Shown piece after piece: positions 9,304 through 59,631 of a stretch of 61,483 bases of DNA. The stretch covers positions 1 to 61,483 of the forward strand of contig FZLS01000009.1 in assembly GCA_900197625.1 (NCBI GenBank), given 5' to 3'. The notes beneath the pieces are model-generated. The model saw only the letters and a program-made list of their open reading frames with translations. It was not told the origin of the DNA and searched no databases. The position numbers were made by a program, and so were the translations under genes. Source of the DNA: Rhodobacteraceae bacterium Water-Bin34. Its GTDB lineage: Bacteria > Pseudomonadota > Alphaproteobacteria > Rhodobacterales > Rhodobacteraceae. Every line of letters starts with the position of its first letter. Positions within the stretch are counted from its first letter, which is position 1.

Positions 9304-10332
9304 ATGAATATCCCACCTGACCACCCAAAAATAAAACCTGCTAAAATAGGTGTTATTCTTGCAAACTTAGGAACGCCAGATGCCACAGATTATTGGTCTA
9401 TGCGTAGATACCTATCGCAATTTTTGTCAGATAAAAGAGTGGTTGATTACTCATCTTGGCTTTGGCAACCCTTGCTGCAAGGAATAATTTTAACTAGAAG
9501 GCCGTTTTCATCAGGCGAAGCATACCGATCAATATGGAATAATGAATTAAATGAAAGTCCGTTACTTACAACTACCAGACTTCAGTCAAACGCTGTAAAA
9601 AAAGAAGTCGAAAAAATTTACGGCAGCGATGTTATCGTCGATTTTGCTATGAGGTATGGCAATCCATCTACAGAAAGCGTCATAAAAAAATTAAAAGATC
9701 AAGGCGTAGAAAAAATTGTCTTTTTCCCACTTTACCCACAATATGCCGGTCCGACTACAGCAACGGCAAATGATGAAGCGTTTAGAACTTTGATGAAGAT
9801 GAATTGGCAACCTTCAATCCGTACAGTTCCTGCATATTTTGACAATCCGTTATATATAAACGCATTAGCAAATTCAGTTAAAGAAAAATATGCATCTCTA
9901 GAAAAAAAACCCGATATATTAGTTTGCTCATATCATGGTGTACCAGTTCGTTACTTGATGGAAGGCGACCCTTACCATTGCCAATGCCAAAAAACGACAC
10001 GATTGCTCAAAGAAGCACTCGGTTGGAATGACACAGATATAAAAACCACTTTTCAGTCAAAATTTGGACCTGAAAAATGGCTACAGCCATATACTGTAGA
10101 AGAAGTTGCGCGCCTAGCAGAAGGCGGGCAAAAGAATATAGCAATAATGTCACCTGCTTTTTCGTCTGATTGTGTGGAAACTTTAGAAGAAATAAATGAA
10201 GAAATTTACGAAAGCTTTGAAGAGGCCGGTGGTGAGACATTTACGTATATTGAATGTTTAAATGATAGCGCTGATCATATCAAAATGATGATGGGAATTT
10301 TAAAGAATGAATTGGCTGGCTGGATAAAATAA
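9304..10332 (+). CDS. hemH: Ferrochelatase
   Basis: Inserts Fe2+ into protoporphyrin IX, the last step of haem synthesis. The conserved metal/proton-handling His is in VCSYHGVP (His211), and the C-terminal conserved Glu is in SDCVETLEE (about Glu292). GDPYHCQCQKTTRLL is typical of alphaproteobacterial ferrochelatases. The length of 342 aa is normal. An AGGA ribosome-binding site precedes the ATG. Two other haem genes, hemJ and hemW, occur elsewhere in the window. Confidence 0.96.
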   Translation: MNIPPDHPKIKPAKIGVILANLGTPDATDYWSMRRYLSQFLSDKRVVDYSSWLWQPLLQGIILTRRPFSSGEAYRSIWNNELNESPLLTTTRLQSNAVKKEVEKIYGSDVIVDFAMRYGNPSTESVIKKLKDQGVEKIVFFPLYPQYAGPTTATANDEAFRTLMKMNWQPSIRTVPAYFDNPLYINALANSVKEKYASLEKKPDILVCSYHGVPVRYLMEGDPYHCQCQKTTRLLKEALGWNDTDIKTTFQSKFGPEKWLQPYTVEEVARLAEGGQKNIAIMSPAFSSDCVETLEEINEEIYESFEEAGGETFTYIECLNDSADHIKMMMGILKNELAGWIK

Positions 10333-31353: not shown

Positions 31354-32171
31354 AATTCTAATAAAACTCTATCTCTTAACGCACTATCAACTTTTGGTTC
31401 GACACCAAACCACCCCTTAAATCCAGGGACAGCTTGATGTAATAGCATTCCAAGCCCATCAACTGTTTTACAACCAATTCTATTAGCATCTTCTAAGAGA
31501 GGTGTTTTTAACGGATTGTAAACAATATCTGTTACCAATGTGTTTGAGCTCAACGTTGATAAATCAATTTCAAGGTTGCTTGATCCCACCATCCCAAGAG
31601 TGGTTGTATTTACCAAAGTATTAATTCCAGATATATGTTTGTTTATATTTTCCCAATTAATAACTAAAACTTTTTCACCAAATATATTGGATAATTTTTT
31701 TGCTCTTTCATATGTTCTATTGGTAAGAATAACTTTTGGTGCCCCTTCATTCAAAAGCGAATATACTATCGACCTAGACGCACCTCCAGCACCCAGAACT
31801 ACTGCAGGACCTAGGTCAGCTTTCCAATCTGGTGCTAACTGGGTTAGATTATTAAGAAAACCTATTCCATCTGTGTTATCAGCATAAATTTTACCTTTTT
31901 TAAATATAAGTGTATTTGCCGCACCGATTTTTTTTGCTCTTTCTGTGGGGTTTGATGAAATCTCTAACGCCATTTCTTTATGTGGCACAGTAATATTTAG
32001 ACCAGCATATCCATCATTCATTAAGCGTTTAATTCCAAGCTTAAAGTTTTCAGGGCTTAGGCTAATTTTTTTATATGATCCATTAATATTATATTTATCA
32101 AGCCAATAATTATGTATTATTGGAGATTTACTTTGTTCAATTGGCCACCCAACAACACCAGCTTTAATCAT
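31350..32171 (-). CDS. aroE: Shikimate dehydrogenase (NADP+)
   Basis: Reduces 3-dehydroshikimate in aromatic amino acid synthesis. Substrate-binding QSKSP near the N-terminus, NITVPHKE with the catalytic Lys, ANTDGIGF, and the nucleotide-binding GAGGASRS with NRTYERA are present. 273 aa. Coupled to both maf and coaE by 4-nt overlaps. Confidence 0.95.
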   Translation of the reverse strand: MIKAGVVGWPIEQSKSPIIHNYWLDKYNINGSYKKISLSPENFKLGIKRLMNDGYAGLNITVPHKEMALEISSNPTERAKKIGAANTLIFKKGKIYADNTDGIGFLNNLTQLAPDWKADLGPAVVLGAGGASRSIVYSLLNEGAPKVILTNRTYERAKKLSNIFGEKVLVINWENINKHISGINTLVNTTTLGMVGSSNLEIDLSTLSSNTLVTDIVYNPLKTPLLEDANRIGCKTVDGLGMLLHQAVPGFKGWFGVEPKVDSALRDRVLLEL

Positions 32172-32767
32172 GACTTTAATATCTCACGGGTACGTAAAAA
32201 ATTTAATACTTCTAATAATGGAAAACCTAATATTGTAAAATAATCACCCTGTATTCTATTAAATAATCCAATACCTTTATCTTCTAATAAATAACAACCA
32301 ACAGAAGATAAAATGTTTTCATTTGAAGTGCTTATATATTCGTCTAAATAATTATCGGAAAAATCTCTCATGAATAATTGTGCCCTTGATACCGTTCTCC
32401 AAACAGGTTTATTATTTTCATATATTACTGCTGCTGATAATAATTGGTGCGATTTACCTTTTAAGAGATTCAAAGTTTTTTTTGCTTCGTCGAAAGTGCG
32501 TGCTTTTGACAATATAACATTATTACATACCAAGATTTGATCACTACCAATTACTATATCATTTGGAAAATTATTTGCTACTCTTAATGCTTTGTATTCA
32601 GCTAATGTATCTACAATTTCGTTAGGTTTAGCCCCCTCACTTTGAAGTGAGTTTTTAATTGCACCCTCGTCAATTCTTGCTGCTACACATTTAAAATCAA
32701 CACCTGCTTGTTGCAATAAATTTTTACGTGCTGAAGATTCTGATGCTAATATAATTTTTTGTTTCAC
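32168..32767 (-). CDS. maf: Maf family nucleotide pyrophosphatase
   Basis: Hydrolyses non-canonical or bulk NTPs; family members are linked to septum inhibition and house-cleaning. LASESSARKNLLQQAG at the N-terminus and GSDQILVC in the centre are typical. 199 aa. GTG start. It is the gene immediately flanking the putative replication origin, as in other Alphaproteobacteria. Confidence 0.9.
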   Translation of the reverse strand: MKQKIILASESSARKNLLQQAGVDFKCVAARIDEGAIKNSLQSEGAKPNEIVDTLAEYKALRVANNFPNDIVIGSDQILVCNNVILSKARTFDEAKKTLNLLKGKSHQLLSAAVIYENNKPVWRTVSRAQLFMRDFSDNYLDEYISTSNENILSSVGCYLLEDKGIGLFNRIQGDYFTILGFPLLEVLNFLRTREILKS

Positions 32768-32807
32768 AATACGCCTATAATGTTTTTATAATTACTTGTT
32801 AACTATT

Positions 32808-32816
32808 TGTGGATAA
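32808..32816 (-). promoter_or_regulatory. DnaA box
   Basis: Exact TTATCCACA on the minus strand within the putative origin. Confidence 0.8.
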
Positions 32817-32936
32817 TATGTGTTTAAATATTGGTTACTAACACATCTTTAATTCATTAAATAAACAATTAACACTCTTCAGAAAATTCTAACATCTTAT
32901 TACCTATGGATAAGAATATTTAATTTTATTTATTTC

Positions 32937-32945
32937 TGTGGATAA
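32937..32945 (-). promoter_or_regulatory. DnaA box
   Basis: Exact TTATCCACA on the minus strand within the putative origin. Confidence 0.8.
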
Positions 32946-32981
32946 ACTTTCCTTCTATTTTTATTATAAACTATTAATATT

Positions 32982-32990
32982 TTATTCACA
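32982..32990 (+). promoter_or_regulatory. DnaA box
   Basis: TTATTCACA on the plus strand, fitting TTATNCACA, in the most AT-rich part of the putative origin. Confidence 0.75.
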
Positions 32991-33035
32991 TTTTTAATAA
33001 AATGATATCAATCATTTAGAGACTTATCCCTTATT

Positions 33036-33044
33036 TGTGGATAA
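33036..33044 (-). promoter_or_regulatory. DnaA box
   Basis: Exact TTATCCACA on the minus strand; preceded 12 bases earlier by TTATCCC, a partial site in the other orientation. Confidence 0.8.
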
Positions 33045-33196
33045 GTTTTTATACATTTATTATTTATTATTTATTGTGAGTATCTACGAGGATATAATTT
33101 AATCCCCACTTTCCACAAACTATACTACAAACATCTATTCTTTCTTAAAATATATATTATAGTAATTATAAATTAATTTATTAATGGAATTATATA

Positions 33197-33646
33197 ATGG
33201 ATATATTAAATGCGTTTTATCCTTGGACAAAAGTAATACATCTAATTGCTGTAATTTCATGGATGGCAGGACTTTTATATTTACCCAGATTATTCGTTTA
33301 TCATGTAGAAACAAACTCTGATTATTTAAATGCAGAAAAAACCATTGTGAAATGGGAATATTTATTACTGAAGCGAATAATGAATCCTGCAATGATTACA
33401 ACTTGGGTGTTTGGTGTTTTACTACTTTTAACACCAAACATAATTGATTGGTCAGCTGGTTGGATTTGGATAAAACTTATTTCAGTATTTCTAATGAGTG
33501 GTTTTCATGGTTTTTTATCTAAACAACAAAAGTTATTAGAAAAAGGTACCTACAAATACTCAGGTAAACAATACCGTTACCTAAATGAAGTACCTACTAT
33601 TCTAATGATATTAATAATAATAATGGTTGTTGTAAGACCTTTTTAA
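33197..33646 (+). CDS. hemJ: Protoporphyrinogen IX oxidase HemJ
   Basis: Small integral membrane protein (149 aa, UPF0093) that oxidises protoporphyrinogen IX in many proteobacteria. Conserved KVIHLIAVISWMAGLLYLPRL, MNPAMI, HGFLSKQQ and RYLNEVPTILM blocks are present; the conserved His in the first helix is a haem ligand in studied members. About four membrane helices. It borders the putative origin and precedes rho, the common order in this class. Confidence 0.93.
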   Translation: MDILNAFYPWTKVIHLIAVISWMAGLLYLPRLFVYHVETNSDYLNAEKTIVKWEYLLLKRIMNPAMITTWVFGVLLLLTPNIIDWSAGWIWIKLISVFLMSGFHGFLSKQQKLLEKGTYKYSGKQYRYLNEVPTILMILIIIMVVVRPF

Positions 33647-35077: not shown

Positions 35078-36376
35078 ATGAATGACATTATCTTTGCCCT
35101 TGCCAGCGCAAAGGGAAGGGCTGGTGTTTCTGTTATAAGGGTGTCTGGAAAAAATTCTATTTTTTCTATCGAAAAGCTTTTGAAAAATACACTACCTGTG
35201 GATAATAAATGCTTAAGAAAAATTTATGATGCCGACGACAATATTATTGATGAAGTCTTAATATTAACCTTTAAGGAAAAAGCAAGCTTTACAGGTGATG
35301 AAACAGTTGAAATACATTGTCATGGCAGTACAGCGGTTGTCACATATATATTACAAACATTGAGTAACATTAAAAACTTTCGCATTGCAGATCCAGGTGA
35401 ATTTACAAGAAGGGCCCTTGAAAACGGGAATTTAGATTTAACACAAGTTGAGGGCCTTGCAGATCTAATAGAATCAGAAACAGAAGCACAGCGTCGTCTA
35501 GCAATAAGATCTATGGATGGCGCCTTGTCCTCTAAGGTGCAAGAGTGGAGAAAAGATCTAATACGGGCAGTAAGTCTTATTGAGGCTACAATTGATTTCG
35601 CTGATGAGGATATACCAACTGATGTTACCCCAGAAGTCTTAGGTTTAATCAATAAGACCCAAGCTGACATAAAATCTGAAATAAAAGGTTCTTTTGCTGC
35701 AGAAAGAATAAGAGAGGGTTTTGAGATAGCAATAGTTGGTCCACCAAACATAGGTAAGTCAACCCTTCTTAATGCTCTGGCGGGTAGAGATGCAGCAATT
35801 ACATCTGATATGGCAGGAACAACCCGAGATGTTATAGAAGTAAAAATGGATATAAGTGGTTTTGCTGTAACCTTATTGGATACAGCAGGAATAAGAGAAA
35901 CTACTGATAAGATTGAGAAAATTGGCGTTGATAGAGCAAAGCTAAGAGCAAAAAATGCAGACCTTAGACTATTTATTACCCACAGTGGAGAGCCTAACGA
36001 TCTTAAACTAAACCCAGAAGAAAATGATATTGTGGTAATTGGAAAATCAGACTTGTTAAATAAACCAGATATATTAGCTATATCTGGAAAATCAGGTGAA
36101 GGATTAGATTCTTTATTAGAAGAGATATCCGATAGGTTAAGCCGCCTGTCTATAGGCGCTCAAACCGCCACGAGGGAAAGACATAGAATATCTATGATAA
36201 AAGCACAAAGATTTTTGGATTCTGGAAAATTACTTATTGAAGATAACTTAGAGCTCTCAGAGCTTGCATCTTCTGAATTTCACCAAGGAATACAAACCCT
36301 AAGCTCATTAATTGGGTCTGTAGGTGTTGAAGACTTACTTGATGAAATATTCTCAAGTTTTTGTTTGGGCAAGTAG
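35078..36376 (+). CDS. mnmE: tRNA modification GTPase MnmE
   Basis: With MnmG installs the 5-carboxymethylaminomethyl group on U34 of certain tRNAs. N-terminal folate-binding domain (1-115), helical domain with inserted G domain (G1 GPPNIGKS, DMAGTTRD, G3 DTAGIRE), and the C-terminal Cys motif FCLGK. 432 aa. AAAGGG precedes the ATG. Its partner mnmG follows directly. Confidence 0.96.
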   Translation: MNDIIFALASAKGRAGVSVIRVSGKNSIFSIEKLLKNTLPVDNKCLRKIYDADDNIIDEVLILTFKEKASFTGDETVEIHCHGSTAVVTYILQTLSNIKNFRIADPGEFTRRALENGNLDLTQVEGLADLIESETEAQRRLAIRSMDGALSSKVQEWRKDLIRAVSLIEATIDFADEDIPTDVTPEVLGLINKTQADIKSEIKGSFAAERIREGFEIAIVGPPNIGKSTLLNALAGRDAAITSDMAGTTRDVIEVKMDISGFAVTLLDTAGIRETTDKIEKIGVDRAKLRAKNADLRLFITHSGEPNDLKLNPEENDIVVIGKSDLLNKPDILAISGKSGEGLDSLLEEISDRLSRLSIGAQTATRERHRISMIKAQRFLDSGKLLIEDNLELSELASSEFHQGIQTLSSLIGSVGVEDLLDEIFSSFCLGK

Positions 36377-36465: not shown

Positions 36466-38340
36466 GTGTTTCACGTGAAACAATATGATGTAATTGTAAT
36501 AGGTGGTGGTCATGCGGGTGCAGATGCAGCACATGCAGCTTGGAGGGTGGGAGCAAAAACGGCCCTTATCACACATAAATTTAGTACTATTGGAGAAATG
36601 TCATGTAATCCTGCCATCGGTGGTTTAGGAAAAGGGCATTTGGTACGCGAGATTGATGCTCTTGATGGATTAATGGGGCGCATTGCTGATAAGGCTGGTA
36701 TACAATTTCGGCTGTTAAATAGAAAAAAGGGCCCTGCTGTGCAGGGTCCAAGAACTCAAGCTGATAGAGCTCTATATAGATCTGCAATGCAGAACGAATT
36801 TATTGGTCTTGATGGGTTGGATATTATTGAATCTGAAGTATCCGACTTAATGATGAAAAAAGAAAAAGTCACCGGTGTAATCTTGTCTGATAAAACTGAA
36901 GTACAAGCTCGTACTGTTGTTTTAACAACAGGTACATTTCTTAGGGGTATTATACACATAGGGAACGTAAGTCGACCAGGTGGGCGCATGGGTGACAAAC
37001 CAGCGATACCGCTGGCTAGGAGATTAGACAATTTTGGATTACCGCTTGGGCGCTTGAAAACAGGAACACCCCCTCGCTTGGATTCAAGAACAATTAATTG
37101 GAGTGTCCTAGAAACACAAGCGGCCGATGAAAACCCAACACTATTTTCATTTCTTTCACAGAAAAAAGATATACCACGCCAGATAGAGTGTGGGATTACA
37201 CACACAAACCCCACAACACACGCTATAATACAAGAAAACTTATCTAAATCAGCAATGTATGGTGGCCATATAGATGGGGTTGGGCCTAGATATTGCCCAT
37301 CAATAGAGGATAAGATTGTAAGATTCTCAGAGAAAGACAGCCACCAAGTGTTTCTAGAGCCAGAGGGATTAAATGATCATACAATTTATCCAAACGGAAT
37401 TTCTACCAGTTTACCCGAAGACATTCAAAGCCAATACGTTCACTCAATGCTTGGGTTGGAAAATGTAAAGATTTTGCAACCAGGATATGCAATTGAGTAT
37501 GATTACGTGGATCCCAGGGCTTTAAAACATTCACTAGAGCTCAAAGATGTAAAGGGGCTTTATCTTGCTGGTCAAATAAATGGTACTACAGGATATGAAG
37601 AAGCGGCCGCCCAAGGGTTAGTTGCAGGGTTAAATGCTGCGAGGGCAGCACATGATAAGGCCCCTATCGTTTTTGACAGGGCTCAGGCATATATAGGTGT
37701 CATGATAGATGACCTGGTAACTCGAGGCGTTAGTGAGCCCTATAGAATGTTTACTAGCCGAGCAGAATTCCGTCTTTCTTTAAGGGCAGATAATGCGGAC
37801 CAAAGATTGACTGGTATTGGCATTAAATGTGGACTTGTAGGCGAAAAAAGACAAAATATATTTAATAAAAAAATACACGCACTAGACAAAGCAAAAGCTC
37901 TATTGAGCTCTTATTCTATAACACCAACTCAAGCAAAAAAAGCAGGTATTTCTATAAAACAAGATGGAATACGCCGATCTGCAATGGAGTTACTTTCTTT
38001 CAAAGATGTAGATTTTAATAAATTAGAGCATATATGGCCAGGTTTTCCAGATTTTAATCAAGAGGTTAGAGATCAGTTAGAAAAAGATGCTATTTATATT
38101 AACTATATAGAACGACAGTCTGCTGCGGTAAATGCTATGAGAAAAGACGAAAAACTATCAATACCAGAAAATTTGAATTATAGTGATATTTCTGGTCTTT
38201 CAAACGAACTAAAGCAAAAACTTATACATTCACGACCAGCATCTTTGGCACAAGCAAGTAGAATTGAGGGGATGACCCCGGCAGGATTAGCATTAATACT
38301 AACATCTATAAGAAGATATGATGCAAAGAAAACTGCATGA
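36466..38340 (+). CDS. mnmG: tRNA uridine-5-carboxymethylaminomethyl modification enzyme MnmG
   Basis: FAD-dependent partner of MnmE. FAD motif [10 protein letters not shown] near the N-terminus, then [21 protein letters not shown], and LKTGTPPRL. The first codons span a perfect parS site (36467-36482), encoding FHVKQ. Possible starts are GTG 36466, TTG 36460 and GTG 36475; none has a clear ribosome-binding site, and I choose GTG 36466 because alphaproteobacterial MnmG often begins with an FHVK-like segment. The stop overlaps rsmG (ATGA). Confidence 0.94.
36467..36482. promoter_or_regulatory. parS site 1 (perfect)
   Basis: TGTTTCACGTGAAACA, identical to the universal 16-bp bacterial parS palindrome bound by ParB/Spo0J. 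It lies in the first codons of mnmG, about 3.5 kb from the putative origin. Confidence 0.95.
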
Positions 38341-38972
38341 ATGATACAATCTCAAAGTATGATTTAATGAGTGTTTGCACTGTTTCACGTGAAACAATCG
38401 ATCGGTTAGAGGTTTATGCAGGATTGCTTGAGAAGTGGAATTCAACCATTAACTTAGTGTCAAAAAATACAATAAATCAAATGTGGAAAAGGCACTTTTT
38501 AGATTCAGCACAGCTATGGCCACATATACCTAGTGAGACAAAAACTCTAGTAGACATTGGCTCAGGGGCAGGTTTTGCTGGGTTAGTTCTGGCTATTATA
38601 GGCATGGAAAAATCCCCTAATATGAAATTTACTCTCATTGAAAGTGATTCAAGAAAGTGTGCATTTATGAGAAATGTTTCACGTGAAATAAATCTTGACG
38701 TACAAATAATAACAAAAAGAATAGAAGAAGTAACAGATATAAAAGCGGATGTGATCACGGCCCGCGCGCTTGCAACAGTTTCACAGCTGTTAGAGTATAG
38801 TAAAAATATACTTAAAGATAATGGAGTTTGTTTGTTTTTAAAGGGAAATGCATGTTGTGATGAACTAAAGATAGCCAAAGAATCGTGGGTATTTTTATCT
38901 AGTCAATCTCAAAGCATTACACATGTGACGGGATGTGTGTTAAGATTAACGGAGATTAAATATGCCAGCTAA
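38337..38972 (+). CDS. rsmG: 16S rRNA (guanine-527-N7)-methyltransferase RsmG
   Basis: Methylates G527 of 16S rRNA. SAM-binding [21 protein letters not shown] and RHFLDSAQL are typical of GidB/RsmG. 211 aa. Two parS sites are embedded in its coding sequence, each encoding VSRE (38381-38396 and 38675-38690). The 3' end overlaps parA by 11 nt. Confidence 0.94.
38381..38396. promoter_or_regulatory. parS site 2 (perfect)
   Basis: TGTTTCACGTGAAACA inside rsmG, identical to the consensus and to site 1, 566 bp before parA. Confidence 0.95.
38675..38690. promoter_or_regulatory. parS site 3 (one mismatch)
   Basis: TGTTTCACGTGAAATA inside rsmG, one mismatch (position 15) to the consensus, 294 bp after the start of site 2. 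Confidence 0.85.
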
Positions 38973-39747
38973 ACTCAAAAGAATAGTATCAATAGCTAAT
39001 CAAAAGGGCGGTGTGGGAAAAACAACAACTGCTGTAAATATGGCGGCTGCAATTTCTAGAAGAGGCCACAAGGTGCTTATTGTAGACTTAGATCCACAAG
39101 GAAATGCATCTACAGGCCTTGGTGTATCGCCAGAGAATAGAGAGTTTACCGCATATGATATATTAGTTGATGGTATAGATATTACTAAAGCAATAGTTGA
39201 AACAGATGTTAAAAATTTATCTATAATTACATCAAATGTAGATTTAAGTTCGGCTGATGCTGAGCTTATGAATGACAAGGGACGCCTTTTAAGATTAAGA
39301 AGTTCTTTAAATGAAATTAAAGGGTTTGATTATATTTTTATAGATTGTCCACCATCACTAAATTTACTGACAATTAATGCTTTTGCAGCTAGTGATTCTG
39401 TTTTGGTCCCGCTGCAATCTGAATTTTATGCTCTTGAGGGACTATCTCAATTAATTCTTACAGTTAGAGAGGTGCGAGAAGCGCTAGGTACAGAACTATT
39501 TATTGATGGCGTGGTTTTAACCATGTTTGATAGAAGAGTTAAGCTTGCACAACAAGTTGAAATAGATGTTCGTGAAAACTTAAAAAATTTAGTATATAAG
39601 ACAATAATACCTCGAACTGTTCGGCTATCTGAAGCGCCCTCTTATGGTGAAACTATTTTAGAATATGATGCTTCAGGCCGTGGTGCAGAAGCATATTTAG
39701 CATTAGGGGCTGAATTTTTAAAACGTGATAAAGTAAAACAAAAATAA
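38962..39747 (+). CDS. parA: Chromosome partitioning ATPase ParA
   Basis: Walker-type ATPase that moves ParB-parS complexes. Deviant Walker A KGGVGKTT at residues 15-22, VDLDPQGNAS, and DCPPSLNLLT are diagnostic of chromosomal ParA/Soj. 261 aa. Followed by parB after about 20 nt. Confidence 0.97.
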   Translation: MPAKLKRIVSIANQKGGVGKTTTAVNMAAAISRRGHKVLIVDLDPQGNASTGLGVSPENREFTAYDILVDGIDITKAIVETDVKNLSIITSNVDLSSADAELMNDKGRLLRLRSSLNEIKGFDYIFIDCPPSLNLLTINAFAASDSVLVPLQSEFYALEGLSQLILTVREVREALGTELFIDGVVLTMFDRRVKLAQQVEIDVRENLKNLVYKTIIPRTVRLSEAPSYGETILEYDASGRGAEAYLALGAEFLKRDKVKQK

Positions 39748-39768
39748 TTTTAGTTATTGGAAAAAGAA

Positions 39769-40659
39769 ATGATTAAGAGAAAAGATCGTAAGGGACTTGG
39801 TCGCGGATTATCTGCCTTGATGGCCGATATTGATCAGAGCCCTAAAGAAATTCCAGGTAAAACTTCAGGTATTTCAAGTAACATGCTTCCTATCGAAAAA
39901 ATTATAGCAAACCCCGATCAACCTCGTCAGGACTTCAATAAAGAAGATTTAGAAGATCTGGCAAAATCAATTGCATCACGAGGAATAATACAGCCTATAA
40001 TTGTTCGCATTTCAAAAGAAAATAATGAACTTTATCAGATAGTTGCTGGTGAGCGTAGGTGGAGAGCGGCCCAACGTGCACAGTTACATGAAGTACCAGT
40101 AGTAGTTCGTGATTTTACAGATGAAGAGTTATTAGAGGTCGCCATCATTGAAAACGTACAGCGTTCTAATTTAAACCCCGTTGAGGAAGCGCTTGGATAT
40201 CAGGCGCTCATTGATAATTTTAATTATACCCAAGAGCAGGTAGCATCTGGATTAGGAAAAAGTAGAAGCTACATAGCAAATTTATTAAGATTGTTAAATT
40301 TGCCTGAAAAGGTGCAGAAATACGTACGAAAGGGTGTGCTTTCAGCGGGTCATGCAAGAACATTGGTTGGGAACAAACAAGCACTTGCCTTAGCAAACAT
40401 AATGATTGAAGAAAACATGTCCGTAAGAGAAGCAGAAATATATGTAAAACAAAGACTTAATAGGAAAAATATAAATAAACATTCAAATAAAAAAGATTCT
40501 GATACACGCGCACTTGAAGCAGATTTATCTGCAAACACTAAAATGAAAGTGACGATTGACCATAAAGGAACTCCAGGAAGTGGGAAGATTACTATTTCAT
40601 ATAAAAATTTAGATGAATTAGATCAAATATGCTCTATGCTGATGGACGGCTCCAAATAA
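39769..40659 (+). CDS. parB: Chromosome partitioning protein ParB
   Basis: parS-binding CTPase. N-terminal KGLGRGLSALMADI, the ParB/Srx CTP-binding segment GERRWRAAQRA with NVQRSNLNPVEEA, the helix-turn-helix (QEQVASGLGKSRSYIANLLRLL) and a C-terminal dimerisation domain. The ATG at 39769 matches family N-termini; a TTG 12 bases upstream is less likely. 296 aa. Its last 26 nt overlap the convergent DUF454 gene. Confidence 0.96.
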   Translation: MIKRKDRKGLGRGLSALMADIDQSPKEIPGKTSGISSNMLPIEKIIANPDQPRQDFNKEDLEDLAKSIASRGIIQPIIVRISKENNELYQIVAGERRWRAAQRAQLHEVPVVVRDFTDEELLEVAIIENVQRSNLNPVEEALGYQALIDNFNYTQEQVASGLGKSRSYIANLLRLLNLPEKVQKYVRKGVLSAGHARTLVGNKQALALANIMIEENMSVREAEIYVKQRLNRKNINKHSNKKDSDTRALEADLSANTKMKVTIDHKGTPGSGKITISYKNLDELDQICSMLMDGSK

Positions 40660-58831: not shown

Positions 58832-58860
58832 ATTAATTATACTAAATAGTGGAGGATTAC

Positions 58861-59631
58861 ATGACGACTTTAACTAAAAAAGGCTTTAAAACAGCCTTAG
58901 CAGCGATGGTGGCGGGTATTTTACCAGCATCAGCACATGCTGCAACACTTGCGCCTAACGATTATGTTGGAATTTCATTCTGGCTAATCTCTATGGCGCT
59001 TATAGCTGCGACAGCATTTTTCTTTATCGAAACTACAAGAGTTGAGGGAAAATGGAAAACGTCTCTAACAGTATCTGGTTTGGTAACGTTGGTAGCAGCA
59101 GTACATTACTTCTACATGCGCGATGTATGGGTATCAACAGGTGAGTCACCAACAGTATACCGCTATATTGATTGGTTAATTACTGTTCCATTATTGATGG
59201 TAGAGTTTTATTTAATTTTACGCGCAATTACTAACGTATCGCAAGGTATCTTCTGGCGCTTAATGATTGGTACAGTGGTAATGCTCGTAGGTGGGTATGC
59301 TGGTGAGATTGGTTATATCAGTGCAACTTTAGGATTCATTATCGGTATGCTTGGTTGGGCTTACATCTTGTATGAAATCTTTGCAGGTGAAGCTAGTAAA
59401 GTTGCTGCAGATGAGGCCCCGGCTTCTGTTCAATCAGCTTTCTCAACAATGCGTTGGATTGTGACGATTGGTTGGGCAATTTATCCTTTAGGATATTTTA
59501 TGGGTTATATGAACGGCGCTGTTAGCGACGAAGCATTGAATATAATTTATAACTTTGCTGATGTTTGGAACAAAATTGCGTTCGGTGTGATCATTTGGAA
59601 CGTGGCTGTAACAGAGTCAGAATCAAAATAA
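58861..59631 (+). CDS. Proteorhodopsin, green-type, proton-pumping
   Basis: Light-driven proton pump of seven helices, 256 aa. The ATG at 58861 follows GGAGG (58851-58855); a GTG at 58849 is not preferred. A signal peptide ends near ASAHA (about residue 27). Key residues: counter-ion complex His82, Arg101, proton acceptor Asp104, Thr108, donor Glu115 (DTE motif), retinal Schiff-base Lys238. The spectral-tuning site, equivalent to position 105 of the first green pigment, is Leu112, predicting green absorption. crtE and crtI follow, which would start retinal synthesis. Confidence 0.97.
   Translation: MTTLTKKGFKTALAAMVAGILPASAHAATLAPNDYVGISFWLISMALIAATAFFFIETTRVEGKWKTSLTVSGLVTLVAAVHYFYMRDVWVSTGESPTVYRYIDWLITVPLLMVEFYLILRAITNVSQGIFWRLMIGTVVMLVGGYAGEIGYISATLGFIIGMLGWAYILYEIFAGEASKVAADEAPASVQSAFSTMRWIVTIGWAIYPLGYFMGYMNGAVSDEALNIIYNFADVWNKIAFGVIIWNVAVTESESK

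Follow-up and report, generated by a model that had tools for sequence, protein, structure and literature searches.

The maf–hemJ intergenic gap as the probable chromosomal replication origin of a marine Rhodobacteraceae genome

Where does chromosome replication begin in a marine Rhodobacteraceae genome that is a draft of many contigs, and in a stretch of it that carries no hemE? We analyzed 61,483 nucleotides (the window; contig C175) of an assembly of 3.6 Mb in 274 contigs, with an estimated contamination of 5.1%. By HemJ identity, the nearest named relatives are alpha proteobacterium HTCC2255 (78%), a FRAM18 Amylibacter MAG (76%) and Amylibacter marinus (70%), and a tree of HemJ and Rho groups the window with the FRAM18 MAG (G022) and HTCC2255 (taken to be G030). 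An initial annotation of the window had named the gap between maf and hemJ as the chromosome replication origin. Our analysis bears this out: box clustering, conservation of the gap and of one box, adjacent parS and parAB, and strand polarity in HTCC2255 concur on the gap or its near surroundings, and we conclude that the gap is very probably the chromosomal oriC of this genome.

The candidate is a divergent intergenic gap of 429 bp (32768..33196, no strand). Gene direction switches across it, from maf on the minus strand (32168..32767, Pfam Maf) to a plus-strand gene at 33197..33646 (Pfam UPF0093) that we take to be hemJ. The gap is 80% A+T, against 68% for the surrounding 3.4-kb locus. It holds four exact matches to the DnaA box TTATNCACA. 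Three of the four, box 1 (32808..32816), box 2 (32937..32945) and box 4 (33036..33044), lie on the minus strand and read TTATCCACA; box 3 (32982..32990) lies on the plus strand and reads TTATTCACA. Two minus-strand near-matches, TTAAACACA at 32819..32827 and TTATCCATA at 32905..32913, each differ from TTATNCACA by one mismatch. The initial annotation was accurate on each of these points: the A+T-rich gap, the switch in gene direction, the four boxes and the two near-matches.

Could the gap be a mere divergent promoter for maf and hemJ, its boxes either serving DnaA in regulation or arising by chance in A+T-rich DNA, with the origin elsewhere within tens of kilobases? We consider this improbable, and the clustering of the boxes argues against it. 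Four boxes arose in none of 20,000 dinucleotide-preserving shuffles of the gap sequence, and in a scan of the whole window the gap was the only place with at least two exact boxes within about 420 bp. At the assembly's own box frequency (143 in 3.6 Mb), about 3e-5 four-box clusters of 429 bp are expected assembly-wide. The assembly contains 33 TTATCCACA sites, three of them inside the maf–hemJ gap; elsewhere in the assembly, every pair of these sites is more than 429 bp apart. The window as a whole is only mildly enriched, with nine exact boxes against a chance mean of 4.36 (at least nine in 5 of 100 shuffles). Five of the nine fall outside the gap (2382, 31225, 35197, 36950 and 43745), so the earlier statement that a single isolated exact box occurs elsewhere in the window is wrong for TTATNCACA and holds for TTATCCACA alone. 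In HTCC2255, two further pairs of exact boxes are spaced by no more than 429 bp.

Comparison with relatives weighs on both sides of the promoter explanation. The gap comparison comprised 31 rows with adjoining maf and hemJ, representing 27 distinct genomes including the source; four rows are duplicates of loci, drawn from a second collection, and L014, with no maf on its contig, was dropped. In all 31 rows the gap measures 401–629 bp between match edges and exceeds its own locus in A+T. At least one exact box is present in the gap of 21 of the 27 genomes and at least two in 14; the remaining six have none, which counts in favor of a promoter. Against a promoter, box 1 is the most conserved 9-mer: when 18 gaps are aligned, it takes the top rank among 420 nine-column windows. 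Box 2 is also conserved (rank 19), the near-matches at 32819 and 32905 are unremarkable (ranks 167 and 107), and the positions of boxes 3 and 4 are not conserved among the aligned gaps. We rejected the notion that the whole gap is unusually conserved: at 71% identity to HTCC2255, it does not stand above five other intergenic gaps (64–84%).

The same 18-gap alignment reveals three conserved blocks at the hemJ side, TTTAATCCCC, CTACAAACATCTA and ATATATTATAG (33095..33164, no strand). These blocks are candidates for the unwinding element, the hemJ promoter, or both, and insofar as they could be a promoter they favor the promoter explanation. Between boxes 3 and 4 lies a predicted IHF-like site (33006..33018, plus strand), a match to WATCAANNNNTTR, which we assume to be the IHF consensus. 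The consensus is also matched in 4 of 22 other gaps scanned, in two of them on the same strand as at 33006–33018. No GANTC occurs in the maf–hemJ gap.

For the gap as oriC, we infer from sequence that the site is active as an origin, that DnaA and IHF bind it, and where it melts. DnaA would load first on the conserved strong boxes 1 and 2 (32808 and 32937), and would then occupy boxes 3 and 4 and the near-matches, where a DNA bend at the IHF-like site (33006) may assist. It would next melt A+T-rich DNA, most likely at the conserved end beside hemJ (33095–33164), from which two forks would depart in opposite directions. ParB bound to the parS sites 3–6 kb away would segregate the new origins. 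The oriC of E. coli is a cluster of DnaA boxes with an A+T-rich region, set in a gene neighborhood that differs from maf–hemJ.

The segregation genes lie where the initial annotation had placed them, close by the gap, with exact parS and parAB 3–8 kb away. Two exact parS sites, both TGTTTCACGTGAAACA (36467..36482 and 38381..38396), and a parS-like site with one mismatch (38675..38690) were found by sequence match, with no strand assigned, 3.3–5.5 kb to the right of the gap. They are followed on the plus strand by parA (38962..39747) and parB (39757..40659). In the six genomes searched, exact parS occurs solely beside the maf–hemJ locus. Exact parS sites so near the gap are a further argument against a mere promoter. 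dnaA was not found in the assembly; a strong PF00308 match is present in all five relatives searched. In the assembly, the neighboring dnaN-like gene is cut at the apparent end of contig C157, so dnaA probably lies in an assembly gap, and we rejected true absence from the genome as less likely than a contig break.

Strand asymmetry in the window indicates a change in the region of the gap. GC3 skew, taken separately for plus- and minus-strand genes, is higher to the right of the gap than to the left: +0.16 versus +0.10 for plus-strand genes and +0.01 versus -0.18 for minus-strand genes. The right-minus-left difference of 0.124 was reached by 2 of 5,000 permutations. The likelihood changepoint reaches its peak of 13.4 log units at 28.2 kb, against 9.8 for the gap itself, and a simple difference places the best cut at 14–15.5 kb. 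With a likelihood of 7 to 13.5 log units throughout 8–44 kb, the profile is broad and therefore marks a change somewhere in this region, not its exact place. This breadth, with its best point at 28 kb, speaks for an origin elsewhere nearby, as the promoter explanation would have it.

The source genome is in 274 contigs; whole-chromosome asymmetry was assessed on sampled stretches of relatives. In HTCC2255, the asymmetry switches at or near the maf–hemJ gap (1,372,467–1,372,899), within about 10–20 kb, which again tells against a mere promoter. Twenty sampled 20-kb stretches place the skew switch at 1.35–1.46 Mb and the reverse switch at 0.23–0.34 Mb. Across the contiguous 1.339–1.470 Mb, the best GC3 likelihood changepoint is at 1.383 Mb, with the gap third, 1.7 log units lower; the simple-difference statistic favors 1.354 Mb, which is 18 kb left of the gap. 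Of 65 GGGNAGGG octamers, 57 fit the gap as origin with a terminus at about 0.23 Mb, and the best-fitting origins, at 1.27–1.32 and 1.39–1.42 Mb, fit 58. Within the right arm, GC3 skew and octamers are reversed at ~2.12–2.18 Mb of the scaffold (the stretch at 2.13 Mb), a candidate inversion or scaffold misjoin.

Other relatives give a more varied picture. In ten of them we sampled two 20-kb stretches per side of the gap (5–25 and 45–65 kb). From left to right inner stretch, GC3 skew climbs by about 0.19 or more in eight of the ten; G031 and G004 show no clear rise across the gap. Five relatives, G032, G018, G023, G014 and G021, lack a negative GC3 skew in their outer left stretch. Octamers, counted on both strands in the sampled stretches, pool to 5 plus and 21 minus on the left and 17 plus and 9 minus on the right (Fisher p 0.0017). 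We set this contrast aside as broad support, since its significance rests on G031 and G004. These two supply 31 of the 52 octamers, in the expected polarity (left 3 plus, 15 minus; right 11 plus, 2 minus), and the other eight relatives give 2 plus and 6 minus on the left and 6 plus and 7 minus on the right (p 0.40). In G023, where raw and GC3 skew are patchy, 20 sampled stretches show octamers mostly minus up to 1.51 Mb and all plus from 1.65 Mb, with the gap at 1.511 Mb. G035 has weak GC skew whose switch falls in an interval from 87 kb ahead of the gap to about 450 kb past it, and its octamers have turned plus by 3.38 Mb, about 100 kb short of the gap.

One relative, G003, which forms a clade with G004 and G031 in the HemJ and Rho tree, is a misfit. 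It keeps the gene order of the window at 153–231 kb, including three exact parS sites; its gap is at 207 kb. GC skew stays positive to the left and right of this gap, and its switch, at 3.415–3.43 Mb, is about 240 kb distant and some 20 kb or less from hemE (3.4125 Mb). The octamers are at odds with the GC skew: in the stretches sampled they are mixed (5 plus, 9 minus) from 3.42 Mb to the gap, mostly plus past it, and turn from plus to minus near 1.9 Mb, opposite the gap. A scan of 19 stretches from 3.28 to 0.37 Mb found the highest box density in the gap, which holds one exact box only. We rejected a move of the G003 origin to hemE because no box cluster lies near hemE in the stretches scanned and the octamers disagree. 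We take the maf–hemJ gap to be the origin in G003 too, with its GC skew left unexplained. The initial annotation had offered GC skew as a check on the origin: a change near the gap is found in HTCC2255, it fails in G003, and the window's own change is too broad to place more finely than somewhere in the window. Near the G003 skew switch are two genes, presumably transposase-like, of equal length and with identical first 60 residues. Far from the gap, at 2.227 Mb of the same genome (2,227,353–2,227,418), three exact TTATNCACA boxes lie within 66 bp.

The weakest explanation, that the origin followed hemE, the Caulobacter-type flank, upon rearrangement and left the maf–hemJ gap as a relic, draws on the proximity of the G003 skew switch to hemE and is very improbable, given that parS and the densest boxes of G003 stay with the gap, that its octamers are mixed up to the gap and turn opposite it, that hemE of HTCC2255 sits far inside one arm, at a distance of 237 kb from the gap, and that in 9 of 10 hemE-family loci (from the source, its genus and G035), the source's among the nine, the 1.5 kb upstream of hemE contain no exact TTATNCACA.

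If the maf–hemJ gap is oriC, what became of hemE? The initial annotation was right that hemE is missing from the window: the assembly has a single URO-D match, located on contig C253 beside genes that we read as hemC and recR. The absence is an older loss common to relatives, and hemE lies away from hemJ in all nine genomes searched. Among 19 named loci, the gene order is maf, hemE, hemH, hemJ, rho in eight and maf, hemE, hemJ in one (L045); six have maf–hemJ without hemE, and four have no maf match. In six of the nine hemE-bearing loci (L036, L037, L039, L043, L044 and L045), the longest frame from maf to hemE is COG1806-like, as judged by eye from the first residues. In L038 and L041 the longest such frame is not COG1806-like by this measure, and L042 has no frame of 100 aa there. 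A search of four genomes with maf–hemJ, the source assembly (G000), HTCC2255, G023 and G035, yielded no PF03618 (COG1806) match. In the window, hemH is at 9304–10332. As a separate observation, contig C2 of HTCC2255 carries a second URO-D (HemE-family) gene (35275–36306) that outscores the one on the main scaffold.

An intermediate arrangement is found in G036, of the same family, where 438 bp separate the end of a PF03618 match from the ensuing hemE match and hemJ comes right after hemE, leaving no room for hemH. The origin may thus have stayed in place while its flanks were stripped stepwise, with initiation probably not CtrA-gated as in Caulobacter, a scenario on which we are evenly divided; because of G036, the steps are ordered with hemH leaving the locus first, then hemE moving and COG1806 being lost. 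The maf–hemJ gap has no full CtrA site (TTAA-N7-TTAA), half-sites occur in the scanned gaps, and a full site is missing from 22 of 23 gaps scanned. In the stepwise scenario, it is this near-general absence of full sites that argues against CtrA gating. The Caulobacter origin, by contrast, has five CtrA sites according to passages of PMC1914354.

Relative to described origins, this locus is a familiar one. An oriC adjoining maf is stated to be conserved in Rhodobacteraceae, per DoriC, in a passage of PMC4793288 that concerns Ketogulonicigenium vulgare Hbe602, and the origin proposed here likewise lies directly beside maf, as in those DoriC/Ori-Finder predictions. In passages of PMC6699656, oriC is predicted in 101 Rhodobacteraceae chromosomes from boxes, GC disparity and nearness to parAB. 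The Caulobacter crescentus Cori and Rickettsia oriC, as outlined in parts of PMC1914354, lie between COG1806 and hemE in an A+T-rich gap of about 400 bp with DnaA boxes. The gap described here is likewise A+T-rich, of similar length and furnished with DnaA boxes; unlike in those two, COG1806 was not found in the assembly and hemE is on another contig. The wider order maf ... hemJ–rho is common to Alphaproteobacteria that keep hemE at this position. We found no literature on the HTCC2255 replication origin. Because the literature already describes an oriC next to maf as conserved in the family, the maf–hemJ origin is real but ordinary, an instance of the published type.

Its placement in a marine Rhodobacteraceae draft genome aids growth-rate estimates from read depth. 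A rule relying on hemE alone would miss the origin here; maf, hemJ and parS locate it. Elsewhere in the window, a rhodopsin gene (58849–59631, Pfam Bac_rhodopsin) is followed by a frame that we take to be polyprenyl-synthase-like.
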